From a virus: a stretch of 20,245 nt of DNA. Below are positions 2,160-20,223 of this stretch, piece after piece. The position numbers and the translations under genes are program-made. The first letter of the stretch is position 1. Each line of letters begins with the position of its first letter. The notes beneath the pieces are model-generated. The model was not told the origin of the DNA, ran no database searches, and was given only the letters and a program-made list of their open reading frames with translations. Location: positions 1-20,245 of IMG/VR virus record IMGVR_UViG_3300035698_003303; one strand, 5' to 3'.

Positions 2160-2188
2160 ATTGTATAGTATCGTATGTGCATTGTCAA
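2160..2188 (-). promoter_or_regulatory. Sigma70-type promoter for the leftward operon
   Basis: On the minus strand TTGACA (2188-2183) is a perfect -35 box, followed by a 17-bp spacer and TACAAT (2165-2160), a 5-of-6 match to the -10 box. The predicted start of transcription, near 2153, leaves a short leader with a strong AAAGGAG before the 51-aa gene. No late-promoter motif is seen on this strand, which suggests early expression by the host-type holoenzyme. Confidence 0.75.
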
Positions 2189-2795: not shown

Positions 2796-5700
2796 ATGAG
2801 TTCAACATCAGCACGCGGTTATTCGCTATTCGTCAATGAAGATTGGAAGAGAGTCTACGAGACTTTCCGTGAAGCAGACTTCCAAGCATACGACTACGAA
2901 ACCCTTCGCAAGACAATGATTGATTATCTTCGTATCTATTATCCCGAAGATTTCAATGATTTCATTGAATCATCTGAATATATCGCACTAATCGACTTAT
3001 TTGCGTTCATGGGCCAGAGCCTTGCGTTCCGCACCGACATGAATGCCCGCGAAAACTTTCTTGAGACAGCAGAACGCCGTGACAGTGTTCTTCGCTTGGC
3101 TCGTATGCTTTCGTATTACCCAAAACGTGCTTCAACGGCTCGTGGTTTCCTAAAAATAGACAGCATTACCACCACAGAAAACGTATTTGACTCGAACGGC
3201 TTCAATCTAGCCGACACACCTATCATCTGGGACGACAACATCAACAGTGACTTCCTTGAACAGTTCACAATCGTGATGAACTCATCCCTACAAAGCTCAC
3301 AGCGTTTTGGTAAACCACAATATAGTGCAACAGTAAACGGCATCAAGGTAGAAGAGTATTCTATGAACCTTGTGCCAAGCACCATTCCGATTTACAACTT
3401 CTCAACGACCATCAACGGTCTAAGCACAGATTTCGAACTGGTCAATGGAACGTTCTCTGGGCAGTCATATGTATATGAGCAACCACCAGTTCCCGGTGGC
3501 GGTTACAACATCATCTATCGTAACGATGGACGCGGTAATGGCTCTGTGAATACCGGATTTTTTGTGTATTTCAAACAAGGGTCGGTTCAACAGGCAGACT
3601 TCAATATTGACGAGTCTATTGAAAACCGTATCGTATCTATCGACGTAGAAAACATCGACAACAACGATGTGTGGCTTTACAAGCTGAACCCAGATGGCAC
3701 CGTGGCTGACCGTTGGACGAAAGTTCCAGCAGTATCAGGCACGAACGTAATCTATAACGACTTGGTAAAGAACACTCGTTCGTTGTTCGCCGTAAACTCA
3801 CGCACAAACGACCAGATAGACTTGGCATTTGGTGATGGTGTGTTCTCAGAGATTCCAGTAGGAAGCTTCCGTGCTATTTTCCGCACCGGCAACGCACTAG
3901 ACTACAAAATCACTCCTGACAATATGCAGAACATCGTGGTTGACATTCCTTATCTGAGCCGCAATAACCAACTTGAAACACTAACCATGGAACTAAGTCT
4001 TGAGGCAACAGTATCAAATGCATCGTCTCGTGAGTCATTGAACTCTATCAGAGAGCGTGCCCCACTTGCTCAGTTTAGCCAAGGTCGTATGATCAACGGT
4101 GAGGACTACAACACATTCCCATTGACAAAGTTCAATGACATTCTAAAAATCAAGAGCGTGAACAGAACAAGCTCTGGTATATCACGATACTTAGATGTTC
4201 GAGACACCACGGGAAAATACTCATCGACCAACATCTTTGCTGATGATGGACTTGTGTATGAGTTTGAAGATGTAAACTCTTTCGTTTTTGAGTTCACAAA
4301 CGACAACGACATTCTAAACGTGATTGTCAATCGTATCGAACCAATCATAGCGGACAAACCATCGTTGCATTTCTACTTCGATAAGTATGCCCCGTATGAC
4401 ATCACGGTAAACAATGTAAGTTGGCAGCAACTAACTACCGGCACAAACCTAACGACCGGTTATTTTCTGAACAGCACAAACTCGCCACAAAGTATTGCTG
4501 GTTTTGTCACGTCTAACTTGAAGTTTCTAAGAACAAACTCACTCGTAAAGTTCGTTGCCCCAACTGGTTTCTACTTCCTTGAGAATGGCACGCTGGCAGC
4601 GGGAACAAGTGGTGCCCCCGGCACACGAGATTTCATATGGTCGGCATTGACCAGTGTTATTGATGATGGTGCAAACCAAGGTGTAGGTGCCCTCACAGAC
4701 GGTAGTGGCCCCGTTACGCTAAACGAGATTGTGCCGACCGGTGCTATCCCAACGGAAATCATTGTGCCCTTCACCACGAACTTATCGGCTTCCATTGAGA
4801 GTGCAATCATTACCCGAGTCAAAATATTCAAAGAGTTTGGTCTTCGTTTTGACCAAGGAACTCAAGAATGGGCAATCATCGAAGACGTTGACTTGAATAC
4901 AGCAACCACGTTTGTTCTTGGAAACGCGGGTGACACATCATCCAGCGGCCTTGATAATAGTTGGTTTGTCTTGTTTGAAACTGACGGCGAAACATACACT
5001 GTAAAATATCGTAAGCTTGATTATTTCTTTGAAAGCACCCTACAAACAAGATTCTATTTTCAACCAGACCGGAAGATTTTTGACCCAAGAACGGGCCAAA
5101 CAATCAAAGACAACATCAACGTCTTGAAAATCAACTCACAGCCAGACTCGAACGATGCGTTCCCGACCAACTATAACTTGGCCATCTACGATAACGTTCA
5201 AGAAGCTGATGGTTATGTTGACTCCACAAAAGTCAAAGTCACATTCCCAGACCGTGACGACGATGGTATCCCAGATAACCCAGAGATATTTGACTTGGTT
5301 GTGGCACCACTTACAAACCCTAACGCAAAACTTGTTTTCTTTGAAAGTATTCTGGATGCTGATAACTTCCAAAGATGGCGTCCTATTTCATCTACTACGG
5401 TCAACGTATTATATACATCAGAGACAATCATCAATCAGAACCTAACCTTATATAACGATGGTCAGATTTTCTATGCCACAACCGCAGCCAAGTTCTTTGT
5501 ATTGAATATTGATAGTGCCGGTGTTAGAACTATTGCGGAATCTACTAACTATCGTGTTCGCACAGGTCGTGATTTGATTAACTTCCAATACATCCACAAC
5601 TCACCAAACGACCGCCGTATTGACCCATCACCAGCAAACTTCGTTGATATGTTCCTTCTAACTCGTGCATATGACCAAGACTACCGTGCATACATTGCTG

Positions 5701-6287
5701 ATGTAACAAATACAATATCGGAACCGGTGAAACCTACAAGTTTCGAACTACGAAACAGCTTTGGAAATCTTGAGGCGTTCAAAGCTGTCAGCGACACACT
5801 GATTTTCAACTCGGTAAAATACAAGCCATTGTTTGGTGAGAAAGCTGAGACTGAACTTCAAGCAACATTCAAGGTAATCAAGAACACCCCAACTCTAAAA
5901 ACTGACTCTGAAGTGCAGACTCGTGTTATCAATGCGATAAACCAATTCTTTGCAGTTGAAAACTGGGACTTTGGCGATACATTCTACTTCTCGGAGCTTG
6001 CAGGGTATATTCACCAAGAGTTATTGCCTGACCTTCAGACAGTTATCATTGTGCCCAACAGCGGCGACCAAGTGTTTGGTTCGTTGTTTCAGATAACATC
6101 ACAGCGTGATGAAATATTCATTAGTGCGGCAACAGTGAATGACGTTGAGGTTATTGATGGAATCACAGCAAACCGATTGAAAGCAAGTGGTTCGGTTGTT
6201 ACTTCTTCGACTTCAGACGACACAATCAAGAGTTCATTTAGCTCTGCGGCTACTATTTCTGATACAAATGTCGGCTCAACAAGCTAA
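2796..6287 (+). CDS. 6: Baseplate wedge subunit gp6-like, enlarged (1163 aa)
   Basis: gp6 forms the ring of the inner baseplate in T4 (660 aa) and is related to the P2 gpJ / baseplate J family. Visible hallmarks are: the N-terminus at 23-115 (FREADFQAYDYETLRKTMID, then ENFLETAERRDSVLRLAR); LAFGDGVFSEIPVGSF near 343-358; APLAQFSQGRMINGEDYN near 423-440; and a C-terminal segment at about 978-1122 with NWDFGDTFYFSELAGYIHQE. The protein is nearly twice T4 size. Most of the excess lies between about residues 470 and 970, where the sequence is beta-rich and holds a DRDDDGIPD calcium-type loop at 819-827. The last 30 residues are Ser/Thr-rich low-complexity sequence. The start has AAGGA 8 bases upstream and its own late promoter. 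Enlarged gp6 is, to my knowledge, usual in marine T4-like phages. Confidence 0.9.
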   Translation: MSSTSARGYSLFVNEDWKRVYETFREADFQAYDYETLRKTMIDYLRIYYPEDFNDFIESSEYIALIDLFAFMGQSLAFRTDMNARENFLETAERRDSVLRLARMLSYYPKRASTARGFLKIDSITTTENVFDSNGFNLADTPIIWDDNINSDFLEQFTIVMNSSLQSSQRFGKPQYSATVNGIKVEEYSMNLVPSTIPIYNFSTTINGLSTDFELVNGTFSGQSYVYEQPPVPGGGYNIIYRNDGRGNGSVNTGFFVYFKQGSVQQADFNIDESIENRIVSIDVENIDNNDVWLYKLNPDGTVADRWTKVPAVSGTNVIYNDLVKNTRSLFAVNSRTNDQIDLAFGDGVFSEIPVGSFRAIFRTGNALDYKITPDNMQNIVVDIPYLSRNNQLETLTMELSLEATVSNASSRESLNSIRERAPLAQFSQGRMINGEDYNTFPLTKFNDILKIKSVNRTSSGISRYLDVRDTTGKYSSTNIFADDGLVYEFEDVNSFVFEFTNDNDILNVIVNRIEPIIADKPSLHFYFDKYAPYDITVNNVSWQQLTTGTNLTTGYFLNSTNSPQSIAGFVTSNLKFLRTNSLVKFVAPTGFYFLENGTLAAGTSGAPGTRDFIWSALTSVIDDGANQGVGALTDGSGPVTLNEIVPTGAIPTEIIVPFTTNLSASIESAIITRVKIFKEFGLRFDQGTQEWAIIEDVDLNTATTFVLGNAGDTSSSGLDNSWFVLFETDGETYTVKYRKLDYFFESTLQTRFYFQPDRKIFDPRTGQTIKDNINVLKINSQPDSNDAFPTNYNLAIYDNVQEADGYVDSTKVKVTFPDRDDDGIPDNPEIFDLVVAPLTNPNAKLVFFESILDADNFQRWRPISSTTVNVLYTSETIINQNLTLYNDGQIFYATTAAKFFVLNIDSAGVRTIAESTNYRVRTGRDLINFQYIHNSPNDRRIDPSPANFVDMFLLTRAYDQDYRAYIADVTNTISEPVKPTSFELRNSFGNLEAFKAVSDTLIFNSVKYKPLFGEKAETELQATFKVIKNTPTLKTDSEVQTRVINAINQFFAVENWDFGDTFYFSELAGYIHQELLPDLQTVIIVPNSGDQVFGSLFQITSQRDEIFISAATVNDVEVIDGITANRLKASGSVVTSSTSDDTIKSSFSSAATISDTNVGSTS

Positions 6288-6289
6288 TA

Positions 6290-6305
6290 TTATATACATA
6301 TATAA
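6290..6305. repeat. AT-only inverted repeat after gp6
   Basis: TTATATA-CA-TATATAA is a perfect 7-bp inverted repeat just after the gp6 stop. It has only A:T pairs and would be a weak hairpin. It is followed by a TTCTTTTT stretch, so a weak terminator is possible, but the stem is too weak to be sure. Confidence 0.3.
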
Positions 6306-6314
6306 TTCTTTTTC

Positions 6315-6322
6315 ATAAATAC
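6315..6322 (+). promoter_or_regulatory. Late promoter motif ATAAATAC before the giant gene
   Basis: CATAAATAC is one of the best matches in the window to the T4-type late promoter, with a T-rich tract (TTCTTTTT) just upstream. Transcription would begin near 6327, about 21 bases before the ATG at 6348. Confidence 0.65.
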
Positions 6323-6337
6323 CTATAATAATATAGG
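6322..6337 (+). promoter_or_regulatory. Hairpin covering the ribosome binding site of the giant gene
   Basis: CCTATA (6322-6327), a 4-base loop ATAA, and TATAGG (6332-6337) form a perfect 6-bp stem. The right arm contains the AGG of the Shine-Dalgarno AGGA (6335-6338). The left arm is the stretch between the late promoter core and the predicted RNA start near 6327. RNA coming through from gp6 would carry the hairpin, while RNA from the late promoter would lack most of the left arm. Confidence 0.5.
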
Positions 6338-6347
6338 ATTATAAAGA

Positions 6348-9300
6348 ATGGCTCTACGTAAAACAATCGGTCTTCTACCTGAGATTTTCAGAACACAGAA
6401 GAACGAAAAGTTTCTAAATGCAACAGTTGATCAGCTTGTTACTCCAAAAGTAGAAGAAAAACTGAATGCTTACATCGGACGAAAGTTTGCACCGACCTAT
6501 ACCAAGGGCGATCAGTATGTAACCGAGCCTTCGGACGCCAGACAAGAATACCAGCTTGAGCCGGGTGTTGTTTATAATAACACCAGCGATAATGATGGTG
6601 CTAATCGTATTGAGTTCCTAACAAACTATGTAGATATGATCAACCGTATTGATTCACAAGGCGGTGATGTATCAGACCACGACAGAATATTTGAGAACGA
6701 ATACTACACATGGTCATCGTTCTTCGACTTCGACAAGTTCGTAAACTTCTCTCAATATTACTGGTTGCCGAACGGTCCTGACTCAGTTCAGGTCTTTAGT
6801 TCTATTATCGACAACGAAGCAAACTTTGATTTTACACGAGTTGATAACGAGAGTGCATATTTTGTAAATGGTCGTAACTCAGTAAACAACCCAACCATTC
6901 AAATCGCTCGTGGTGGGTCATATACATTCACCGTAGACCAAAATGACAATCCTTTTTATATTCAAACCGAACCCGGTCTGGATGGCCTCAAAAACATCCA
7001 AGACAACATTTCCACACGTGATATCTTGGGTATAACTAATAACGGAGAGGACACCGGACAGGTCACTTTCAACGTCCCACAGGCAGATGCACAGAACCTA
7101 TGGATTACGATGCCGACCACGGCTGATGTTGACTTCGCAACTCGCTTGAAGTTCAAGGATGTAAACAAGCAAACATTTAGTGCATTCATTGCAGCAAATC
7201 CAGAAGGACTTGACGGCATCACTGAAATCAACGAAATACAAAACACAACAATCGTTTTCTATAATGATTCAGACCAAGAAGTTACAGCCGATTGGGAATC
7301 TGGTGGTATATTTGACGAGAACGGCGTGGGATACGACACTGATGTTTATGACCCGACCGAGACAGTTCCACTGGCAGAAAGATATGATATCTATTCTCTG
7401 ACCATTGATGCTAACAACATTATCTACCTGAACAGACTGCAAAACATTCCGCAAAATGAGAAAGTCTTTATCCTAAAAGGTGAAGAGTTTGGTAACCGTG
7501 CGTTATGGAAAAATGCTATTGAGCGTCTTGAGTTTGTTCCAGTTATCACGGCACCACTGACACGTTTCTTTTATCAGGACGGAAACGACGCTGAGCGATT
7601 TGGTATCATTGATATTGTTGAACAAGATGTTGTTCCGCCAATCGACATTACAGAAGATATCCTTGGAAGAAACGAATACATTGCACCGAATGCCGTTGAG
7701 TTTACAAACGGACTAAAAGTTGAGTTCAACACAGATGTCACCCCAAGCACATACGCTGGTCGGGAGTTTTATGTAGATGGTGTTGGTCAGCCCGGTGGTA
7801 TTAGATTGACAGCCGTAGACGAACTTATCGTTCCTGAACCGTATACCACAACTGAAGAAGAAGGTTTTGATACAGAGATATATGACTCTACTGGATATGC
7901 TGGTTCGGCCAACGCACCCATAGACCAAGATTACTTTACAATCAATCGTTCGTCAAAAGACCGCAACGCATGGTCCCGTTCTAACAGATGGTTCCACATC
8001 GACGTTATCTCCATAACCGCAGTATACAATAACTTCAACGTTGTTGTTGACCAAAACAACAGAGCAAACCGCCCTATCATCGAAATGGAGCCTGATCTTC
8101 AGCTATACAAATACGGAAAGATATTCAATCGTGTTGTTACTGCGTTCGATGTGAGAGAGAAAGATGCACTATCGAACGTAGAAGGCGAGGCTGGTTTCTT
8201 CGTGGATGGTATTCCGTTATTGAACGGTGTCACTGTTATCTTCTCCGCCGATGAAGACCCGATTGTGCGAAGTAAGATTTACGAAGTTTCTATCGTAGAC
8301 CCACAAGGAGACGATACCGAACAAATACATTTGACTGAGATAGACGAAGCTGAAATAAATGATGTGATTATTGTGTCGAACGGTGCAACCAAGCAAGGCA
8401 TAGCATATTATTATGATGGCTCTGCGTGGGTGCAGTCACAGCAAAAAACACAGCTAAACCAAGCACCGTTCTTTGACATATTTGACACCGATGGCAACTC
8501 ATACAGCGATGACTCTGTATACTTTGGTACTGGTTTTACGGGTTCTAAGTTGTTCAGCTATCAGCAGCAACCTAACGTTACCGAAGACCCTGTTCTTGGG
8601 TTTGGTCTGAGCTATAAAAACTTTGAGAACGTTGGTGACATCATCTTTGAAAACAACTATGTTCGTGACAAGTTTACCTATTCACCAGCAGAAGTAATCG
8701 TAACCAAGAAGGTGAACGATGGTTTTGTTCATAAGATTATAGACCGCGATACCGTTGATATCAAGAACGACTGGACAAAGGTAAACAGAAACTCGCGTCA
8801 GTTCAAGGTTACAGAATACGAAGCGGCGGCAACTCAACTACAGACGTTCCAAGCAGCCGGTATTCCTAAATCTGAAACAGACACGGTAAACTTGTTCGTC
8901 TATAAGAATGCACAGCTTCTAAAACGAAACACAACACAAAACATAACCAACTTTGTTGACACCGATTACACCACTCTGTCTCAGGATGGAAACTTCTTTG
9001 TGGTTCTTAATGAACCGGCAACAGTCGGTGATCAAATCACTATCCGAGTTTACACTGACCAAGAAACCGATTTGGGGTATTACGAAGTTCCGGCCAACTT
9101 GGAAAACAACGCATTGAACGAAGAGTTCACAACCTTGACACTCGGACAGGTTCGTAACCACATCACTACAACCAGTAACAACTCTGCTACGTTCTTCGGT
9201 GAATCACCGGGCCGAAGCAACCTCCGTGACGTGACCAACCTAAAAACATATGCTGGTAATATTCTTCAACACAGTGCCGGTGCCCACATCGGAGCATTCT

Positions 9301-12300
9301 TGTTAGATGGCGAGAACGTCAACTTCAAGTTCAACGAAAAGCACGTGCATAGTGCAAATGCAATCACCTCTATTGATTTCGGACAGAAAGAATACAGCAA
9401 GTTCAAACAAAAGCTATATGAAGCTGTCTCTACGCTAGACTTAGATTTCACAAACATCCCTGCTGCACTCGACACAGTTATTGACGAACTAAAGATCGGT
9501 AAGTCAGAGACGTTCCCATTCTTCTATAGTGACATGATTGGTTATGGTGAGGACGTAACCAACACAACATACATTGTAGAGAACCCATCAATCAAGACCT
9601 ATGATTATGGTATTGAGTTCGACAACACAACGGTGAGCAACCGCTCTATTATTGTGTATTATAACGACGAACAACTGTATCTGGGACAGGACTATAACTT
9701 TGATGCGGGGGCAGCAACTATCACATTCGCAGACACATTTACACTTGCGGTGAACGGTGTCATCAAGATTGTTGATTATGTAAACACAGACGGTAGCTTC
9801 GTGCCACCAACACCATCTAAGATGGGACTATACCCAAAGTATAAACCAGAGATTTACACCGACAACACCTTCAGAACACCTAAGAATGTTATCCAAGGTC
9901 ATGACGGCGGTATCTTTGTTGCGTTTAATGATTCGCGTGATGATGTTATTCTTGAGTTTGAAAAGAGAGTATACAACAACATCAAGACCACGTATACAAA
10001 CGATGTGTTTGATATTAACGAAATCATGCCGGGTAAGTTCCGCGCGACAGATTATACGAGAGAAGAACTAGACAGTATTCTGAGTCTTGGATTCTTACAA
10101 TGGGCAATAAATAACAAAGTCGATTATTCTGCACAAACAGGATTTGATGTTCAAGATAAGTTCACATGGAACTGGTCGAACTTCCAAGACAAAATCGACG
10201 GCGAACTGTTGCCCGGTCACTGGCGTGGTATCTACCGTTATTTCTATGACACCGACAGACCCCATACACACCCCTGGGAAATGCTTGGTCTGAGTGAAAA
10301 ACCAACATGGTGGGACGACCGTTACGGCCTCGCACCTTACACATCGGGTAACGAAGTGATGTGGGAAGACCTACGTGATGCTAAACTATATCAAGACGCG
10401 GATGGCGAAACATTTACCGTGCTTGAAAACTACAAACGTCCTGATTTGAAATCTATCCTTCCGGTAGACGAGAACGGTGGGCTTGCTAGTCCGTTGGTTT
10501 CCGTGGTCGCGGCATACAACACAACTTACATCGAAGAGAGTTATGTCTTTGGTGATGTAGGCCCATCAGAATCAGCTTGGAGAAGAGCAAGCGAGTATCC
10601 TTTTGCGATTATGAAGATGGCGGCTCTAACACGCCCTAGTAAGTTCTTGTTTACTCGTTTCGACGTAGACAACATTTCACGCAATACAAGTCTTGACCAG
10701 ATTGTTGATGTTCATACCTTAAAGAGAATCCGCTCCACTGATCTAAAACTACACGGCACAACAACTGCAACCGGTGCAGTAAATCGCGTCAACGGTATAT
10801 CTCAGTTCCTTTCGGATTATGCACGTCACAGAAACGTAAGTCTGGCAAACATTACAGAGGTTATTGAAAACCTTTCGTTGCAGCTTGTGTATCGCGTTGC
10901 CGGATATACGGACAAGACTTTATTGAAAGTTCTTGCCGAACAGGTATCACCTACATCCACAAACAAAGGTATTTTTGTTCCAGACGACGACTATGAAGTT
11001 ATCCTGACGAAATCAGCACCTATTATTTCGGTTGCCATAAGCGGCGTCATTGTTGAAAAGACTGCAAACGGTTGGGCACTTCGCGGTTACGACACTGAGC
11101 GTCCATACTTCGATATTATTCCAAGCCAGATCACCGACAATAGCTATCAGATTCGTGCGGGAAATGAGTCAACCACAGCCGTTGTATATAATGATTTCAG
11201 AAACGAGATTCTGCGTATCCCATATAACACCGAGTTCACAAACAAGCAGCAAGTTGTTGACTTCTTTGTGTCGTATCAGCGTTACCTAGAAACACAGGGA
11301 TTTGTGTTTGATGAACAGTTAGAAGACGAGAATGATTCACTTCCAAAAGATTGGATTTTATCGGCTAAAGAGTTCTTGTTCTGGCAATCACAGGGATGGT
11401 CAAAAGGCTCGACTCTTACACTGAACCCTGTTTCCGATAAAGTGAAGTTTGAGTTGTTTGGAACCATACCTGATGATATAGGCGGAGAAGGCTTGAACTA
11501 TAAAGTCTTGAACCAGAACTTGAAACCTATCCGATATAACCAGTTGGAAATAAGCAGAGTAGATAATCTATTCACTATCCAAGCCAATCCAAACTCTGGG
11601 TCTATTTATCTCATAGAAGTAAACCCGGTTCAATACGAACACACAATCGTGTTCAACAACAGAACTGCATTCAATGACATTATCTATCTTCCAGAACTTG
11701 GTTCTCGCCAGTTCCGTCTGAAACTTATCGGCACAAAGACAAGTGCATGGGATGGCACTATGCAAGCACCGGGTTATGTGTTCAACCAACCAGTCACAAG
11801 AACGTGGCAAGCTGGTCGCGACTACAAGAAAGGTGACTTTGTAATCTTCCGCAAAAAAACTTGGGTTGCGGTAAAAGACCAAGACGCAACACAAACATTC
11901 GACCAAGAGTTCTGGAAAGTGGCAGACAATATCAAAACTGGTCTGCGTCCAAACCTTGACAGTCTATCGGTCTTGTCAGAAGGTTTCCACGATATTGACC
12001 AACAGAACAACGAAGATGCGTTTGACCGTTTCGGTAAAGGTCTTATCGGATACCAGAAGCGTGAATATCTTGAGAACTTGGAGCTTGATGACGTATCACA
12101 GGTGAAGTTCTATCAGGGTATGATAAAGCAAAAAGGCACTGCGGCGGCTATTGACAAGCTGATTCGTGCTCAACTTGACAACCAAGATTCAGACATTCAG
12201 TTCTTTGAGGAATGGGGATTCCGCATCGGAGAGTATGGTGCGATTGATGCTAACCAAGTAGTCGAAGTAGAACTTGATGAGACACGATTTATCTCTAACC

Positions 12301-15300
12301 CTGAACTTATTGAGTTCCTGAACAACGGCGATACTCGTCCTCAAAGTATTAGTTACATAGAAAATGATTTGTATAAGACTCCTAATGAGTATGATAAAAA
12401 TATGTTTACTAATCGTAGTGGGGTATCTAATACAAGAGGCGACATCACCAATGCTGGTTTCGCCCGCCTTGAGGATGTAAATACAACAATATTTGACATC
12501 GAAGACATCAACGAGCTTAGCTCCAACATAGATAACGTTGGTTCTGGTTATACGGTTTGGACAGGCAGAAACCGTTCTGGTGTCTGGGACATTTATCGTG
12601 TAAGTGAGACTTTCGTGAACGTAGTTGGGGCCGTCGATGTTCTTGACGACCAACTAAAGTTTACGACTGATATAAATCATAACCTTGAACTGAACGACTT
12701 TGTTGCAATCCGTAACACCGATACGGGTGCAGACGGCTTCTACAAGATTACAAAGATTGTTTCTAATATATCGTTCATAGTTGACTTCCAGAGTATTGGT
12801 ATTGACGCAGCGGACTTAGAAGGTTTGCTATTCAAGTTAGTATCTATAAAATACCCAGAACCAAAAGACATCGCATCTTTCAACCCTCTTCTTGGATGGC
12901 AAACCTCTGAGAAGGTATGGCTTGAGAATGACGAAAATGGAAAATGGGAAGTTCTACAAAAACAATCACCGTGGGATTTCAGCAATAATATCTCATACGG
13001 AACTATTGCTGGTTCGGAAAACTTAGGCAACAGCTTCTCTGCATCTGGTAGAAACCTATGGGCAGTCGCCGGTCTTCCAAACTCAGGAACTGGTAAGGCT
13101 ATTACCTATGTCCAAACCGCCACTGGCGACTTTGGCGAAAACTCAACACAAGACCCATCTACTGTGACAGGAATGAACGGATTTGGCACGAGCGTATCTG
13201 CTGGCGGCTCTACTTACTTTGTTGTTGGGGCACCAACGAGTGATAGCAGCAGCGGTTACGCAGTTGTGTATAAGAAAGATTCTGGAAACTCATTCAGTGT
13301 CAGCCAAGTTCTTCGTCCTAGCGGCTTGAACAGTGGTGACAAGTTTGGGCAGACAGTTACAATAAGCGAAGACGAAAACTGGATTTATGTTGGTGCCACC
13401 GGCAGCAGCAAAATCTATGCATACACCCTTCAAGAAGTTATTTCGGCAAACGAAACCGTGGAAACTATTACCGGCGACGGTGTAGCCACGAGCTATGACT
13501 TGTTCTGGTTCCCGGAGAGCGAAGACAACTTACGGATCATTGATGATACTGGACGCATCTTGGTTCCTTACGTTGATTACACAATCAGTGGAAACACAGT
13601 AAACTTCACGTTCACGTTGGTATCTGGGACTGATTACGTTGCACGTCGCGTTACTCTTTATCGCCATATCAGTGAGATTCAACGAGACACAGACTTACAA
13701 GATCGACCAGCGGATGCGTTGGCATCAAACATAACAACAAACGATGATGGTCGAGTTATAGTAGCTGGTGCCCCAAACCGCCGTTACTTTGGAACTGATA
13801 GTTCGTTGATGAGCAATGTCGGTGCCGCTTATGTTTTCGAAAGAACTCAGGAGAGCTTTATAGGTGACGCATCAACAAAAACATATACTCCAACCGGCAC
13901 TCTGCCGCCAGTAAACACATTGGATGTTTACGTGGATGATGTTGTTCAGATTTACACCGTTGATTTGGGGCTTAGTGCTTCGGATTCGCAGTTTGGTGAC
14001 TATACCACATCTGGAAACAGCGTTGTATTCCGAACAGCCCCAGCATCTGGAACCGTTGTTCGTATAAACACAAACAACTTTGTTCAGGTTCAAAGACTAT
14101 TGAGTTCTGATCCTACCGACTCTGACCAGTATGGAACAACTGTTGCTATTGAAAAAGATGCCAACTGGATTGCAGTAGGTTCACCTAACGAAGACCGTAA
14201 CAAAACGAACACAGGCTCTGTCTTTGTGTATGTTGATCAGTCACGCCGTTATGGAACAGTAACCGGAACAGCGTCTCCTACAATCGGGATCGGGGATAAG
14301 ATTCGAATCAATGATGTGGTTGTAACTACAACATCTACTCTGTTGTCCGATCTTGTGAATGACATCAACGCCGCCGGAATATCCGGTATAACAGCGTCTG
14401 GCACAGATGCACTTACCATTACGTCAGACCGGGTAATCGAAGACGACAAGCTTCGTGTGATGCCTCTCAGCGGAGACACATACGGAAGCCTTGGTGTCCA
14501 ACCATATGCCCAAGCACAAGAGATTTCACATCCGAGTGAGTTCGAGAACGAAAGCTTTGGTCTCGTAGTTGACATATCACGCGATGGTGAAACCCTCGTT
14601 ATTGGCTCCAAGTTCGCATCGACAATCAACGAAGTAAGGTTTGATGTTGATAGCGTCACGGACGAAGAGGCTACGTTCTTTGACAGCAACAGCACTAAGT
14701 TCTTTGATAAGGAGCTACAGTCCGGTGCAGTCTACATTTATAATCTACTTGCAAGCTGGCAAGAGTCTGTTACAGACCCTGCTCAGTTTGGATACATTCA
14801 ACAGCTTCAATCAGAGACAATCGAATCGTTCGATGAGTTTGGCACAAGCGTATTTGTGCGTGACGATAAGATCATTGTCGGTTCGCCAAAATATGACACA
14901 ACCACACTGACTGACAGCGGCATTCTGTATGAGTATGAAAACCCAACTCGCGGAAGCGGATGGAAAACTGTTAGATCGGAAGATGAAAAAGTTAACGTTG
15001 ACCTACTAAACAAAGCATTTGTATATGACCGTCGCCGTAACGAAATCTTAGAATATTTGGACTGGATTGACCCCTTCAAGGGTAAGGTTAGTGGACTTGC
15101 ACAGCAAGAACTTTCTTACACTGTTGAACGTGACCCGGCAATATATAATGTAAACTCAAATCAAAAGAACACCACTGATTCGAAACTGCCGTGGGGCGAC
15201 ATACAAGTTGGTCGCCTTTGGTGGGATGTGTCTCGCGTTCGTTATCTCGAATACGAACAAGGTTCCCTAGAATACAGACGCCAGAACTGGGGGGCAAAGT

Positions 15301-18300
15301 TCCCCAGTTCATCTATTGATGTTTATGAGTGGGTAGAAAGCAATGAACTACCAAGCGAATACACAGGTATCGGAACACCGAAGCTTATTGATGATTCCAG
15401 TTATGTAGAGCGTGTGTCCTACAATGCAAATACTGGGAATGTGTCAACCAAATATTATTATTGGGTAAAAGACAAAACAACTGTTCCTAATAACGGCCAG
15501 CGACAACTTGATAGCTTGTCGGTTTCTCGTGCTATTGACAACCCAAAAACATATGGATTGGCATACGTAGCACTTACAAAGAGTAACTCGGTTCTTGGTT
15601 ATAACTTGGCTGGTTATCTTGACGGTAAGAACACAATCCTTCACATCAACTATGATGTGATAAAGAACGCCAACGTGCTACATAGTGAATATCAACTTCT
15701 TGCAGAGGGTGATTCGACCAGCACAATTGAAGATAAGATTTACAATAAGTTTGTTGACAGCTTGGCCGGAACAAACGCCCGAGGTGACTCTGTGCCACAG
15801 CGTAACTTGAGTGTGACAGAACGCTATGGAGTTCTGTATCGCCCTCGTCAAACAATGTTTGTGAACCGTGCGGTGGCCGTTGAGCTATTCGTTACATTCT
15901 GTAACTCAGTATTCGAAACTGTCCAGATTGCCAACCAGTTTGACTTGTCTACCCTTGAAACATCCGATCCTATTCCCGGTGCACAAAGTGGTCAATGGAA
16001 TGAGAGTATCAACACATTTGCCGAACTTGGATACCTAAACCCTGCCATCTATGCAGATGGATACAAAGTTCTCATTCTAAATGACGAGACGGTTGAGAAT
16101 CTATGGACTATCTATACCAAACAGAGTAACAACACATGGACATTGAGTAGAGTTCAAGCGTATGATACTACTAACTACTGGGAAAGAACAACTTGGTATG
16201 CTGATGGATTTACGGCCAATACGGTTGTTACTTTTGCCGTGGAAACCGAACCTGATCTTGAAACTATCGTATCAACTCTAACGGACGGTGACCTTGTAAA
16301 AATCAAGAGTGACGACCAAGGTGGTGAGAGTGTTGTCCAATATTCAGCAACTGATAACAGTTTCACTTCGGTGGTTGTCGAGAATGGAACAATCCGCTTC
16401 AAAGAATCACTATATGATAACAGAGTAGAGGCAATCGGTTTTGACAACGCGGCGTTTGATAACACCGTATTTGATAAGTTGCCATCCACTGAGATTCGTC
16501 AGATTGTGACGGCAGTAAAGAATGACATATTTGTTGAAGATATCCGCATTGAGTGGAACCGCCTATGGTTTACAATGGTCGAATATCTCCTAACTGAACA
16601 GCCGTATGCTGATTGGTTATTCAAGACATCGTTCATCAAAGTTGTTCAGAAGCTTCGTGGGTTGGACCAATATCCAAACTACCAGCGTGACAACCAAGAC
16701 TACATCAGAGATTATATCAACGAGGCAAAACCGTATAGAACAAACATCCGCGAATACATCTTGGATTACACCAAGAATGACCCGTGGGGCGGCGACCCAA
16801 CTGACTTCGACGTGCACAGTTACTTCGATACAGACCTATCACTTTACCGCAAACCTTCGGGTGAGTTGGCGAGTGACTTTGCTCGTTGGGAACAAGGATT
16901 CAATATTCCGTGGGGCGAGAACTACAAGTTCAGTATCGGCTCTGTTATTATCCTATCATCAGGTTCTGGATACACAATACCACCAACTATCACCGTAACG
17001 GGTGGCGGCGGTAGCGGTGCGGTTATTACCGCCGCCACAAACGGTGATAAGATTGTTGGTGTTACGCTTGTGTCTGGTGGTAGCGGATATACTTCTACCC
17101 CTACTGCAACTATCAACGGTGTTGGAACAGGATTCAAAATATATCTAAACCTAACCAACGGTAAAGTTCGTGAGGCAGATGTAACGATGAAGTTCGACCG
17201 CTATAAATACACATCGGATATCGTTGAATGGACAGCCAACACAGCATACACGGCATCCCAGATCATTTCATATCTCGGCGAGGCATATCAGGTAAATACA
17301 GCATACACAAGTGGTGCAACATTTGATGCATCAAACCTAACCGTATATGCGGATTCCAACTTTACAAACGCAGCAGATCGTATCGCAGCTTATTACACGC
17401 CTACCGAGGGAATGGTTGGTAAGGATATAAATCAGCTACAACTTGGCACAGAATATCCAGGTGTCCGTATTTTTGGTCCTGATTTCTCGGCTAATCCCGG
17501 TTTTGACATCGGTGCATTTGATATTGAACCATTCGATTCTATTGAGATTGACGAAAACGGTATTCCTGTTATTAGTGGTGCGGGTTCGTTGGATACGATT
17601 CTTCGAAGCAGCTACACCGATGAATCTTTGGGTCTTGCATCTGAGGATATAAACATTGACGGTAGTGGCTTCGTAGACGTTTACAACTCACACGCCCCAG
17701 AAGAGTTTGTGCCCGGTATTATGTTTGACACCCTCGACTTGAAAGTGTTTACGCTACCCGGCCAAGACCAAGAGTTTGATGGTAATGCAGCAAGAATATA
17801 CACAGAGTTCCACGTAAGTGATGGTTCAACAACCTCGTTCGCATATAAAGGCGGCTCGTCTCTCGAAGATGTTGATAATATCTTTGTGTGGACATCGACA
17901 GGTGGTGCCCAATACGAAGGAACAGACTTCACGGTAAACTACACGACTGGATTGGTGAACTTTACATCATCCCCCGCATCCGACGCGACGATTTACATTT
18001 ACTCATACAGCAATACTGGTGAAAAGCCAGTGGCTGAAGAGAGCTTTGTTGCCGATGGTTCTGTCAAAAAATACAATATCGCAATCGACCCAAGTATCGT
18101 TCAACAGGTCTATGTGTTGGTAGATGGTGTTCGCAGCTTGAATCCGATAATAACGAAGAATGCTCTTGACATTGATATTACACTGACATCAATACCCGCA
18201 TTGAACTCACACGTTCATATCGTGCTATATGATGTCGATCCTGACACAAGACAGGCATTCTCGGCAGTGAACGAGCAAGTAGTTACAAGCGACGGCGTGA

Positions 18301-19463
18301 CAAAAGCAATCACCCTTGACAACCCTGTTCTTTACGGTAAGCCGTTTGGTGCAAATATCATTGTTGAGGTGAATGGTGTTCGTCTTCGTCCTGATAATGC
18401 AGTTTATTATGACGGCGACGGCGACACAACCGACTTCTTTATTCCGTCTTCCGCTCAAGAAAATCAAGCGTTGATTAGCAATAGCGACGTATCGGTTGCG
18501 GTGTATGATTTTAGTGCTGGCCAGTTGGTCAACTATGTATCTGGACAAGACTATACGTTGAACACATATGACGGAAGTTCCGTCCGTTCGATCAGTCTTA
18601 TCGGTGATGATTCGGCAGCGAGAACCCCATCAAACAGAGACAGTGTGATCATTGGTATTTCAACCGATGCAGAATACACGGTCAATGCCGCTGGAACAGT
18701 GGTGACGCTTGGTAGCGGTGTGTCTTTGAACCCCGGTGATAAGATTCGTATCATATCGTTCGGAAACCACGACCCACAGCGTCTGCAAACAAACGTGTTC
18801 AAGGGCACAGGAACACAACAGAAGTTCACGCTAGACCGCGTGGTGACCAACACAGACTATCTATGGGTGACCGTGGATGGCGTGAAACTACACAGTGCAG
18901 TCGATTATACAGTTGAAGGAAACACAATAATCATTTCTGACACAACCACACTGACATCATCAAGTATAATAGTGGTAACCGGCTTCACCGAAGATATATC
19001 ACAGCCAGCTACTGGCTTCCGTATTTTCAAGGATATGTTGAATGTGACAAACTATTATCGTATTGCCAGAGACAATACAACGACACTTGCACAAGCGTTT
19101 GATATTGGTGATGAGACTATGTATGTCAACGACGCAAGTATTCTTGCGGACGCCGACCCAATCGCTGGTGTGCCCGGTTTTGTAATGATTGAAGGTGAGC
19201 GTATTACTTATTGGAGCAAAGACAATGCGACCAACACGATTACCAGAATCCGCCGTAGCACTTCTGGGACAGGTGCAAGAGACACCTACCCAGTCGGGTC
19301 GAACGTGTTTGATGTGAGCGGCCAGAAGATACCGGGTGATACCCACACGAAGGTTTGGTATACCGCAGCAAACGGCAACCCAAGCAACGGTAAGGGTCTA
19401 CAACGTAGTGAAACAGTTCCGGCTAAGTTCCTAGTCGAAAAAAGAACTTTATTGGCTGAGTAA
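6348..19463 (+). CDS. Giant baseplate/tail structural protein, 4371 aa (gp7 position)
   Basis: One uninterrupted frame of 13.1 kb follows gp6, where T4 encodes gp7 (1032 aa). The N-terminus (LLPEIFRTQKNEKFLNATVD, IGRKFAPTYTKGDQYV) and the FDKFVNFSQYYWLPNGPDSV stretch near 128-147 are of the type seen in very large structural proteins of marine T4-like phages. Further blocks: 1902-1970 (YLENLELDDVSQVKFYQGMI), 2984-3070, and 3385-3480 (EYLLTEQPYADWLFKTSFIK, then a YIN-AKPYRTNIREY stretch). Likely binding domains: CBM5/12-like at 1817-1861 and 3626-3675, a seven-blade FG-GAP-like propeller at 2225-2865, two GSGY glycine-rich units at 3539-3600, tandem beta modules at 3824-4215, and a C-terminal module at 4224-4330 (GVPGFVMIEGERITYW). 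No signal peptide, membrane helix or enzyme motif is seen. Inferred role: outer baseplate wedge scaffold with host-surface contact. The gp7 link rests on position, not on similarity I can prove. Confidence 0.85.
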   Translation: MALRKTIGLLPEIFRTQKNEKFLNATVDQLVTPKVEEKLNAYIGRKFAPTYTKGDQYVTEPSDARQEYQLEPGVVYNNTSDNDGANRIEFLTNYVDMINRIDSQGGDVSDHDRIFENEYYTWSSFFDFDKFVNFSQYYWLPNGPDSVQVFSSIIDNEANFDFTRVDNESAYFVNGRNSVNNPTIQIARGGSYTFTVDQNDNPFYIQTEPGLDGLKNIQDNISTRDILGITNNGEDTGQVTFNVPQADAQNLWITMPTTADVDFATRLKFKDVNKQTFSAFIAANPEGLDGITEINEIQNTTIVFYNDSDQEVTADWESGGIFDENGVGYDTDVYDPTETVPLAERYDIYSLTIDANNIIYLNRLQNIPQNEKVFILKGEEFGNRALWKNAIERLEFVPVITAPLTRFFYQDGNDAERFGIIDIVEQDVVPPIDITEDILGRNEYIAPNAVEFTNGLKVEFNTDVTPSTYAGREFYVDGVGQPGGIRLTAVDELIVPEPYTTTEEEGFDTEIYDSTGYAGSANAPIDQDYFTINRSSKDRNAWSRSNRWFHIDVISITAVYNNFNVVVDQNNRANRPIIEMEPDLQLYKYGKIFNRVVTAFDVREKDALSNVEGEAGFFVDGIPLLNGVTVIFSADEDPIVRSKIYEVSIVDPQGDDTEQIHLTEIDEAEINDVIIVSNGATKQGIAYYYDGSAWVQSQQKTQLNQAPFFDIFDTDGNSYSDDSVYFGTGFTGSKLFSYQQQPNVTEDPVLGFGLSYKNFENVGDIIFENNYVRDKFTYSPAEVIVTKKVNDGFVHKIIDRDTVDIKNDWTKVNRNSRQFKVTEYEAAATQLQTFQAAGIPKSETDTVNLFVYKNAQLLKRNTTQNITNFVDTDYTTLSQDGNFFVVLNEPATVGDQITIRVYTDQETDLGYYEVPANLENNALNEEFTTLTLGQVRNHITTTSNNSATFFGESPGRSNLRDVTNLKTYAGNILQHSAGAHIGAFLLDGENVNFKFNEKHVHSANAITSIDFGQKEYSKFKQKLYEAVSTLDLDFTNIPAALDTVIDELKIGKSETFPFFYSDMIGYGEDVTNTTYIVENPSIKTYDYGIEFDNTTVSNRSIIVYYNDEQLYLGQDYNFDAGAATITFADTFTLAVNGVIKIVDYVNTDGSFVPPTPSKMGLYPKYKPEIYTDNTFRTPKNVIQGHDGGIFVAFNDSRDDVILEFEKRVYNNIKTTYTNDVFDINEIMPGKFRATDYTREELDSILSLGFLQWAINNKVDYSAQTGFDVQDKFTWNWSNFQDKIDGELLPGHWRGIYRYFYDTDRPHTHPWEMLGLSEKPTWWDDRYGLAPYTSGNEVMWEDLRDAKLYQDADGETFTVLENYKRPDLKSILPVDENGGLASPLVSVVAAYNTTYIEESYVFGDVGPSESAWRRASEYPFAIMKMAALTRPSKFLFTRFDVDNISRNTSLDQIVDVHTLKRIRSTDLKLHGTTTATGAVNRVNGISQFLSDYARHRNVSLANITEVIENLSLQLVYRVAGYTDKTLLKVLAEQVSPTSTNKGIFVPDDDYEVILTKSAPIISVAISGVIVEKTANGWALRGYDTERPYFDIIPSQITDNSYQIRAGNESTTAVVYNDFRNEILRIPYNTEFTNKQQVVDFFVSYQRYLETQGFVFDEQLEDENDSLPKDWILSAKEFLFWQSQGWSKGSTLTLNPVSDKVKFELFGTIPDDIGGEGLNYKVLNQNLKPIRYNQLEISRVDNLFTIQANPNSGSIYLIEVNPVQYEHTIVFNNRTAFNDIIYLPELGSRQFRLKLIGTKTSAWDGTMQAPGYVFNQPVTRTWQAGRDYKKGDFVIFRKKTWVAVKDQDATQTFDQEFWKVADNIKTGLRPNLDSLSVLSEGFHDIDQQNNEDAFDRFGKGLIGYQKREYLENLELDDVSQVKFYQGMIKQKGTAAAIDKLIRAQLDNQDSDIQFFEEWGFRIGEYGAIDANQVVEVELDETRFISNPELIEFLNNGDTRPQSISYIENDLYKTPNEYDKNMFTNRSGVSNTRGDITNAGFARLEDVNTTIFDIEDINELSSNIDNVGSGYTVWTGRNRSGVWDIYRVSETFVNVVGAVDVLDDQLKFTTDINHNLELNDFVAIRNTDTGADGFYKITKIVSNISFIVDFQSIGIDAADLEGLLFKLVSIKYPEPKDIASFNPLLGWQTSEKVWLENDENGKWEVLQKQSPWDFSNNISYGTIAGSENLGNSFSASGRNLWAVAGLPNSGTGKAITYVQTATGDFGENSTQDPSTVTGMNGFGTSVSAGGSTYFVVGAPTSDSSSGYAVVYKKDSGNSFSVSQVLRPSGLNSGDKFGQTVTISEDENWIYVGATGSSKIYAYTLQEVISANETVETITGDGVATSYDLFWFPESEDNLRIIDDTGRILVPYVDYTISGNTVNFTFTLVSGTDYVARRVTLYRHISEIQRDTDLQDRPADALASNITTNDDGRVIVAGAPNRRYFGTDSSLMSNVGAAYVFERTQESFIGDASTKTYTPTGTLPPVNTLDVYVDDVVQIYTVDLGLSASDSQFGDYTTSGNSVVFRTAPASGTVVRINTNNFVQVQRLLSSDPTDSDQYGTTVAIEKDANWIAVGSPNEDRNKTNTGSVFVYVDQSRRYGTVTGTASPTIGIGDKIRINDVVVTTTSTLLSDLVNDINAAGISGITASGTDALTITSDRVIEDDKLRVMPLSGDTYGSLGVQPYAQAQEISHPSEFENESFGLVVDISRDGETLVIGSKFASTINEVRFDVDSVTDEEATFFDSNSTKFFDKELQSGAVYIYNLLASWQESVTDPAQFGYIQQLQSETIESFDEFGTSVFVRDDKIIVGSPKYDTTTLTDSGILYEYENPTRGSGWKTVRSEDEKVNVDLLNKAFVYDRRRNEILEYLDWIDPFKGKVSGLAQQELSYTVERDPAIYNVNSNQKNTTDSKLPWGDIQVGRLWWDVSRVRYLEYEQGSLEYRRQNWGAKFPSSSIDVYEWVESNELPSEYTGIGTPKLIDDSSYVERVSYNANTGNVSTKYYYWVKDKTTVPNNGQRQLDSLSVSRAIDNPKTYGLAYVALTKSNSVLGYNLAGYLDGKNTILHINYDVIKNANVLHSEYQLLAEGDSTSTIEDKIYNKFVDSLAGTNARGDSVPQRNLSVTERYGVLYRPRQTMFVNRAVAVELFVTFCNSVFETVQIANQFDLSTLETSDPIPGAQSGQWNESINTFAELGYLNPAIYADGYKVLILNDETVENLWTIYTKQSNNTWTLSRVQAYDTTNYWERTTWYADGFTANTVVTFAVETEPDLETIVSTLTDGDLVKIKSDDQGGESVVQYSATDNSFTSVVVENGTIRFKESLYDNRVEAIGFDNAAFDNTVFDKLPSTEIRQIVTAVKNDIFVEDIRIEWNRLWFTMVEYLLTEQPYADWLFKTSFIKVVQKLRGLDQYPNYQRDNQDYIRDYINEAKPYRTNIREYILDYTKNDPWGGDPTDFDVHSYFDTDLSLYRKPSGELASDFARWEQGFNIPWGENYKFSIGSVIILSSGSGYTIPPTITVTGGGGSGAVITAATNGDKIVGVTLVSGGSGYTSTPTATINGVGTGFKIYLNLTNGKVREADVTMKFDRYKYTSDIVEWTANTAYTASQIISYLGEAYQVNTAYTSGATFDASNLTVYADSNFTNAADRIAAYYTPTEGMVGKDINQLQLGTEYPGVRIFGPDFSANPGFDIGAFDIEPFDSIEIDENGIPVISGAGSLDTILRSSYTDESLGLASEDINIDGSGFVDVYNSHAPEEFVPGIMFDTLDLKVFTLPGQDQEFDGNAARIYTEFHVSDGSTTSFAYKGGSSLEDVDNIFVWTSTGGAQYEGTDFTVNYTTGLVNFTSSPASDATIYIYSYSNTGEKPVAEESFVADGSVKKYNIAIDPSIVQQVYVLVDGVRSLNPIITKNALDIDITLTSIPALNSHVHIVLYDVDPDTRQAFSAVNEQVVTSDGVTKAITLDNPVLYGKPFGANIIVEVNGVRLRPDNAVYYDGDGDTTDFFIPSSAQENQALISNSDVSVAVYDFSAGQLVNYVSGQDYTLNTYDGSSVRSISLIGDDSAARTPSNRDSVIIGISTDAEYTVNAAGTVVTLGSGVSLNPGDKIRIISFGNHDPQRLQTNVFKGTGTQQKFTLDRVVTNTDYLWVTVDGVKLHSAVDYTVEGNTIIISDTTTLTSSSIIVVTGFTEDISQPATGFRIFKDMLNVTNYYRIARDNTTTLAQAFDIGDETMYVNDASILADADPIAGVPGFVMIEGERITYWSKDNATNTITRIRRSTSGTGARDTYPVGSNVFDVSGQKIPGDTHTKVWYTAANGNPSNGKGLQRSETVPAKFLVEKRTLLAE
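13020..14942 (+). other. Seven-bladed FG-GAP-like beta-propeller region in the giant protein
   Basis: Residues 2225-2865 carry seven repeats of the pattern (F/Y)G-x-x-V-x-(8-10)-hydrophobic-V-G-(A/S)-P followed by a tyrosine-rich strand. They begin near residues 2225, 2279 (FGTSVSAGG), 2333 (FGQTVTISED), 2458 (LASNITTNDDG), 2595 (YGTTVAIEKD), 2737 (FGLVVDISRDG) and 2831 (FGTSVFVRDD). VVGAP, IVAGAP, IAVGSP and IIVGSP recur. Seven is the number of blades of integrin-type propellers. Beta modules are inserted between blades 3-4, 4-5 and 5-6. The repeats are seen directly; the fold is inferred. Confidence 0.65.
17820..18992 (+). other. Tandem beta-module array near the C-terminus of the giant protein
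   Basis: At least four diverged modules follow one another at residues 3824-4215. Each opens with 'DG(S/V)-T/V-K' or 'GTQQKF', goes on to a strand of the type 'V-x-V-x-V-(D/N)GV(K/R)', and ends 'I-x-I-x-x-Y/F'. Examples begin at residues 3824 (DGSTTSFAYK), 3903 (DGSVKKYNI), 3982 (DGVTKAITL) and 4154 (GTQQKFTLDR). Similar units are inserted in the propeller (near 2365 and 2506). Such short modules are common in large phage structural proteins. The DNA of the copies has diverged. Confidence 0.5.
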
Positions 19464-19468
19464 GGATG

Positions 19469-19476
19469 ATAAATAC
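19469..19476 (+). promoter_or_regulatory. Late promoter motif ATAAATAC before the 217-aa gene
   Basis: GATAAATAC begins 5 bases after the stop of the giant gene. Its predicted RNA start (near 19481) falls on the ATG at 19480, so late RNA could only use the later ATG at 19501. Confidence 0.6.
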
Positions 19477-19500
19477 AATATGAACAAGGATCAAAAACCA

Positions 19501-20154
19501 ATGAACGAAGAGCAAAAACCTGATGAAGTTCGTAATGTGTCTGACTTGAAGGACTGCGGGCAACTACACCTCGAAGGACATATCCGCATTTACGACCCAG
19601 AAACTGGTGAAGATTATGTGAACAAACGTAATGCGATACATTTCGAGAACTTTTCCGAGGCGTTGGCGTTGTCTGTATCTAACAAAACAACAGGTTTCGT
19701 TCACGAAATGGCATTTGGTAATGGTGGAACATCAGTTGATCCGACCGGTGTTATCACTTACTTGCCAGCAAACGCATCAGGTGTGAACGCAGCGTTGTAC
19801 AACCAAACCTATTATAAGGTGGTTGATGACTTGAGTGCATTGAACACCGACACTACACGAAACAAGATTGAAGTTAGACACACGGCTGGTACTGTTTATT
19901 CAGACATCGTTGTGTCTTGTTTGCTCGACTATGGTGAGCCAAACGGGCAGCAAGCATTCGACAACACTGCAAACTTTGATGGAACTTATGTTTTTGATGA
20001 GCTTGGATTGAAATCTTGGAATGGAACGGTCAACACCGGTAAGCTTCTTACCCACGTTATCTTCCACCCAGTTCAGAAGTCATTGAACCGATTGATTCGT
20101 ATTGATTATACCATTCGAGTTCAGACATTATCGAATCTTTCTTCTATCCAATGA
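19501..20154 (+). CDS. Conserved virion structural protein, 217 aa
   Basis: The frame extends to an ATG at 19480 (224 aa), but I prefer the ATG at 19501. It has AGGA 10 bases upstream, and the late promoter at 19469-19476 would start RNA at about 19481, cutting off the first ATG. The protein (GHIRIYDPETGEDYVNKRNA, then FVHEMAFGNGGTSVDPTGVI, YVFDELGLKSW and LTHVIFHPVQKSLNRLIRID) is of a type I recall as conserved in marine T4-like phages and annotated only as structural. It is beta-rich, with no signal peptide or membrane helix. The position after the giant protein corresponds to T4 gp8, but T4 gp8 is larger (334 aa) and I cannot show homology. A baseplate component is the likeliest role. Confidence 0.8.
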   Translation: MNEEQKPDEVRNVSDLKDCGQLHLEGHIRIYDPETGEDYVNKRNAIHFENFSEALALSVSNKTTGFVHEMAFGNGGTSVDPTGVITYLPANASGVNAALYNQTYYKVVDDLSALNTDTTRNKIEVRHTAGTVYSDIVVSCLLDYGEPNGQQAFDNTANFDGTYVFDELGLKSWNGTVNTGKLLTHVIFHPVQKSLNRLIRIDYTIRVQTLSNLSSIQ

Positions 20155-20164: not shown

Positions 20165-20194
20165 GTGAGCCACGAGGTTGCCGCCTCTGCTCAC
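20165..20194 (+). repeat. GC-rich stem-loop in the leader of the last gene
   Basis: GTGAGC (20165-20170) pairs with GCTCAC (20189-20194) and GAGG (20174-20177) pairs with CCTC (20184-20187). There is a 6-base loop TTGCCG and an internal 3/1 bulge. It is the most GC-rich structure between genes here. No T-run follows, so it is not a standard terminator; a 5'-end stabilising or processing hairpin is more likely. Confidence 0.5.
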
Positions 20195-20223
20195 TCTATG
20201 TCACAAGATAGGAGTAACACAGC

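Follow-up and report, generated by a model that had tools for sequence, protein, structure and literature searches.

A predicted T4-type late promoter with a weak, probably incidental ribosome-binding-site hairpin precedes a giant virion gene in an uncultured jumbo phage

The window analyzed here, a 20,245-base IMG/VR virus fragment, carries on its plus strand a gp25-like baseplate gene, a gp6-like baseplate wedge gene, and a gene for a giant virion structural protein (Table 1), with one more plus-strand gene 3' of the giant gene. The plus-strand unit starts near 2192 with a late-type core; the genes upstream of gp25 lie on the minus strand and point left, a layout common to the window and to two relatives, G001 and G002. 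The sigma-70-type site at 2188-2160 is directed leftward, away from the late unit. A 60-nt spacer with an A+T content of 87% separates gp6 from the giant gene, and an Rfam scan of positions 6000-6700 gave no match. The part of the giant protein encoded at 10347-19460 contains an FG-GAP repeat and a sub-threshold match to the carbohydrate-binding family CBM_5_12, which suggests that the protein may have a surface-binding role. Around the likely start of the next gene (19469-19501), the late core ATAAATAC at once precedes an ATG at 19480 that would fall outside the late RNA of this gene; the likely start is the ATG at 19501, behind AAGGA. A G+C-rich hairpin, GTGAGCCACGAGGTTGCCGCCTCTGCTCAC, at 20165-20198, directly 3' of the gene ending at 20154, is possibly a terminator or an RNA-processing structure.

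Table 1. Genes and sequence features around the start of the giant gene, in window coordinates
Feature	Position	Strand	Remark
Sigma-70-type promoter-like site, TTGACA-17-TACAAT	2160..2188	-	11/12 consensus matches; consensus match only
gp25-like baseplate gene	from about 2350	+	Gene content of the window
gp6-like baseplate wedge gene	2796..6287	+	Own TAAATA core about 20 nt upstream, plus AAGGA site
All-A/T inverted repeat ATTATATA-CA-TATATAAT, then TCTTTTT	6289..6306	+	In the gp6-giant gene spacer; in read-through RNA only
Predicted T4-type late promoter core, ATAAATA	6315..6321	+	C at 6314 replaces T at -13
Hairpin left arm, CCTATA	6322..6327	+	Spans -5 to +1 of the promoter
Predicted RNA start (+1)	6327..6327	+	Core taken as -13 to -6 by T4 geometry (PMC2988020)
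Hairpin loop, ATAA	6328..6331	+	From the sequence
Hairpin right arm, TATAGG	6332..6337	+	Holds AGG of the Shine-Dalgarno (SD) sequence
SD sequence, AGGA	6335..6338	+	9 nt before ATG 6348
Giant virion structural protein gene	6348..19463	+	4371 aa, phrog_10938

The giant gene is preceded by an 8-bp TATAAATA-like box, CATAAATA at 6314-6321, with a single mismatch at -13 and an A/T-rich leader downstream. T4 late promoters consist of a TATA box of 8 bp, which precedes the start by one turn of the helix and is followed by A/T-rich DNA, and they too vary at position -13 (PMC2988020). An RNA that starts at 6327 would carry AGGA as its ribosome site in a leader of 21 nt. The hexamer TAAATA was found 26 to 38 nt before the start of the orthologous giant gene in 19 of 82 distinct relatives; eight control hexamers at -26 to -38 scored between 0 and 11 of 82, the highest being AAATAT, which overlaps TAAATAT. 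G002 has an unbroken run of six genes that begins at gp25, includes the giant gene, and extends past it, and TAAATA and an SD stand before every one of them; in the window, late cores precede gp6, the giant gene, and the gene after it. A gp55-like sigma factor was found in 8 of the 9 relatives searched, among them G001, where it was missed with the T4 gp55 query and recovered with the gp55 of a relative; no gp55-like gene was seen in the window, which is a 20-kb fragment. The first-pass annotation had proposed a late promoter before the giant gene, and this is borne out by the 19 relatives, the G002 gene series, and the gp55-like factors.

Part of the published account of the RaK2-like jumbo phages offers a parallel: in CBB, which has a gp55-like sigma factor, ATAAATA is predicted as the late promoter before structural genes, and CBB and GAP32 share with the window the same core before such genes and A/T-rich DNA downstream (PMC5259590). 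They differ in that this part of the account does not mention a ribosome-binding-site hairpin with their predicted late promoters (PMC5259590). The assignment of a T4-type late promoter of its own to the giant gene is thus a well-supported prediction and adds one more case to a known kind; its activity and a start at 6327 are what we infer. In several relatives (L020, L036, L057, L044, and others) the gp6 stop codon TAA lies inside a late core, TTAAATA, at about -32 of the giant gene, and the putative late promoter is there built into the end of gp6. The gp55-like gene of G001 (L152:5021-6847; contig 205021-206847) is a single frame of 608 aa, the most conserved stretch of which is interrupted by about 300 aa (CVDEKTEALT...IYLTGN before TYNDEM); the position of this insertion, together with a sub-threshold match to the intein N-terminal model TIGR01445, indicates that the insert in this late sigma factor is probably an intein.

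Directly behind the core, CCTATA and TATAGG form a perfect 6-bp stem with two G:C pairs. ATAAATA, the CCTATA-ATAA-TATAGG hairpin with AGG in its right arm, and a 4371-aa open reading frame are all present where the first-pass annotation had placed them, and the T4 precedent that it invoked is sound, as genes e, soc, and 49, and also I-TevI, are so described (PMC3014915, PMC2988022). As in T4 e, the late promoter lies in or next to the left arm, the SD lies in the right arm, and late RNA would be without the left arm (PMC3014915); in I-TevI, I-TevII, I-TevIII, segB, and Aeh1 mobE, too, the left arm goes with the late promoter and the right arm with the SD (PMC2988022). Folding of both RNA versions gave the predicted outcome, with the SD closed in read-through RNA, where the hairpin is the minimum-energy local structure, and open in RNA from 6327, where the hairpin is absent. 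The cost of opening the SD was 5.9-6.5 kcal/mol in the read-through RNA versus 0.4-0.7 kcal/mol in RNA from 6327, an equilibrium gap of 5.5-5.8 kcal/mol. Assuming a start near 6327, the SD therefore forms part of a helix that loses its opposite arm in the late RNA. Such a structure would suit a role in dosage, in which the hairpin closes the SD on late read-through RNA from gp6 and the late promoter of the giant gene determines how much giant protein is made; the left arm is almost wholly upstream of the predicted start, and opening the SD costs over 5 kcal/mol more in read-through RNA.

The strength of the stem argues against this role. The isolated hairpin has a predicted energy of -3.8 kcal/mol at 37 C and -6.6 kcal/mol at 15 C, and the minimum in local context is -5.3 kcal/mol; the values for T4 e and I-TevII were -13.3 and -10.5 kcal/mol, about 5 to 8 kcal/mol stronger than the window stem. 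The e hairpin covers AGGAGG, lies downstream of early genes, and has been demonstrated experimentally, whereas that of the window covers AGGA, reaches -5.3 kcal/mol at most, follows late genes, and is a prediction from sequence. Expression of the MS2 coat gene is full at -7.9 kcal/mol and down to 20% at -9.5 kcal/mol (PMC9894550); even hairpins more stable than the window stem hardly change it. Calibration against MS2, an extrapolation from E. coli, predicts 97-100% expression with the window hairpin, that is, less than 5% repression, and the helix would on this basis not be stable enough to block 30S binding. The same fit predicts 0.06% expression for T4 e and 1.3% for I-TevII; since the reported repression of T4 e is about 100-fold (PMC3014915), the fit is right in direction but rough. 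It may understate the effect in the window, where the SD is only 4 nt long and the host may be other than E. coli and cooler than 37 C.

How often such a hairpin would arise by chance was estimated in several ways. A perfect stem of at least 6 bp over the SD, with its left arm upstream of the predicted start, has P = 0.003-0.010 under two nulls in which a 13-nt segment was shuffled or redrawn, and recombining the promoter halves and SD halves of real leaders (107 late-promoter leaders from five phages) gave P = 0.0036 for the hairpin geometry of the window. The chance is 0.3-1% per site and about 1-3% over the three late promoters in the window. The window leader alone has this geometry among the 107 late promoters, where about 0.4 (0.39) would be expected by chance; a single match across 107 late-promoter genes is chance level. 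The energy of opening the SD was borderline against dinucleotide-shuffled upstream sequence, with p=0.03 for a fold from -90 to +35 and p=0.077 for a fold from -70 to +30 (1000 shuffles). The very stable hairpins known from I-TevI, I-TevII, I-TevIII, segB, and Aeh1 mobE block RNA of the early or middle class; the window hairpin reached z=1.5-2.0 in the two fold windows versus z=6.2 for I-TevII and z=4.2 for T4 e, positive controls for which 0 of 100 shuffles were as extreme. The SD-opening test did not pick up T4 soc, whose start codon is within the predicted helix and whose SD is left in the loop. The 11-mer CCTATAATAAT, which makes up the left arm and loop at 6322-6332, also occurs at 2739-2749, at the end of gp25.

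Relatives were then compared at the same position. A second contig of the same phage gives no covariation, as it is 99.8% identical with an unchanged leader, and a strict pattern scan for relatives with their own promoter returned only G002 and this same phage. In G001 (72% aa identity) the giant gene begins on the gp6 stop codon (TTAATGG), without a spacer or promoter. In G002 (71%) the spacer and the ATAAATA core are present, the DNA after the core is TTCAATAAAAGAGAGTATTCAAAAATG, and the arms of the window are absent. G002 is the only near relative with the same promoter, and the complementarity of the arms in relatives, on which the first-pass annotation had staked its proposal beforehand, is missing there at the position of the window hairpin. 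G002 has instead a different 7-bp stem with one G-U pair over its GAG (AATATTC/GAGTATT, -2.3 kcal/mol), which gave p=0.01 in one fold window and p=0.38 in the other; its significance hinges on the folded length, and we rejected it as a functional replacement. In 28 relatives with the promoter, sequestration of the SD was not above that in shuffled upstream sequence (mean z 0.10, median p 0.41). Judged from G002, G001, and these 28 relatives, the hairpin structure is not kept in related phages. Among the 82 representatives, 35 have a giant gene that overlaps the gp6 stop or adjoins it, so that the family seems normally to translate this gene from gp6 RNA; in many gp6 relatives the giant gene starts on the gp6 stop itself, TAATG.

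These comparisons bear on a role in dosage from both sides. The window phage and G002 have a spacer with a promoter where G001 and many others start on gp6, and G002 also has a weak hairpin covering its SD; against this, the G002 result changes with the fold window, and the 28 promoter-bearing relatives lack an excess over shuffles. The suggestion of the first-pass annotation that the hairpin sets the dose is upheld by the geometry and undercut by the strength (-3.8 to -5.3 kcal/mol) and the conservation. We consider it unlikely that the hairpin uncouples the dose of the giant protein from gp6 read-through. It is more doubtful that this lineage gained the late promoter and the weak hairpin together, in a step that uncoupled the giant protein from gp6 read-through, with G002 keeping the function by means of a different hairpin. 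In such a case the control would act on dose inside the late program and not as a switch between early and late.

The T4 genes controlled by such hairpins are carried on early or middle RNA (PMC2988022). The first-pass annotation had envisaged a switch of this type, in which the hairpin blocks translation of the giant gene from early RNA until the late promoter releases it, and the anatomy is indeed that of T4 e and I-TevI, whose early or middle RNA is blocked (PMC2988022, PMC3014915). Early RNA is not evident at this locus, however. Upstream on the plus strand are gp25 and gp6, both of them late structural genes that have TAAATA promoters of the late type; the genes farther away are on the minus strand, and the early-type promoter points away. 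Since the plus-strand unit starts with a late core and the genes before it point away, read-through RNA at 6322 would be late; judged from sequence, the giant gene does not lie on early or middle read-through RNA. With gp25 and gp6 late and the farther genes divergent, the argument from early and late timing fails, and the stem falls short of e and I-TevII by the margin given above. A timing role is unlikely, and a switch like that of T4 e in particular seems highly improbable to us; in this context the hairpin could sensibly act on dose only.

The 16-bp palindrome could also act at the DNA level, as an operator overlapping the late promoter, in the manner of I-TevI autorepression. It spans -5 to +11 of the late promoter as a perfect inverted repeat, and I-TevI represses from such a position (PMC2988022). 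Even with the four loop bases left free, however, the palindrome was found nowhere else in the window, nor in 380 loci except for the copies of the same phage, and a repeated operator was rejected on this count. We regard this reading as scarcely probable.

Our results are best explained by an ordinary T4-type late promoter with an incidental hairpin, which we hold to be probable. A gp55-dependent late promoter would drive the giant structural gene from a 21-nt leader with AGGA, and the hairpin would arise from the A/T-rich region at the promoter start, where a C is favored after the core, being complementary to an ordinary TATAGGA SD context. RNA reading through from gp6 would form the hairpin, whose stability, as predicted, would not suffice for a noticeable block of initiation; this lack of effect is what we infer. 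The hairpin as a regulatory switch is not well supported: it has the right geometry but fails on strength, conservation, and context. The hairpin is most likely incidental, although it may have a modest effect on dose.

Complementarity between promoter and SD in A/T-rich phage DNA need not, then, mean a switch. If the hairpin does work, it would extend the principle of T4 e and I-TevI from timing to the control of dose within the late program. The late promoter assignment points to the route by which a 13-kb virion gene would be expressed in an uncultured jumbo-phage group, in which near relatives are split between starts of the giant gene that overlap gp6 and starts served by a promoter of their own.
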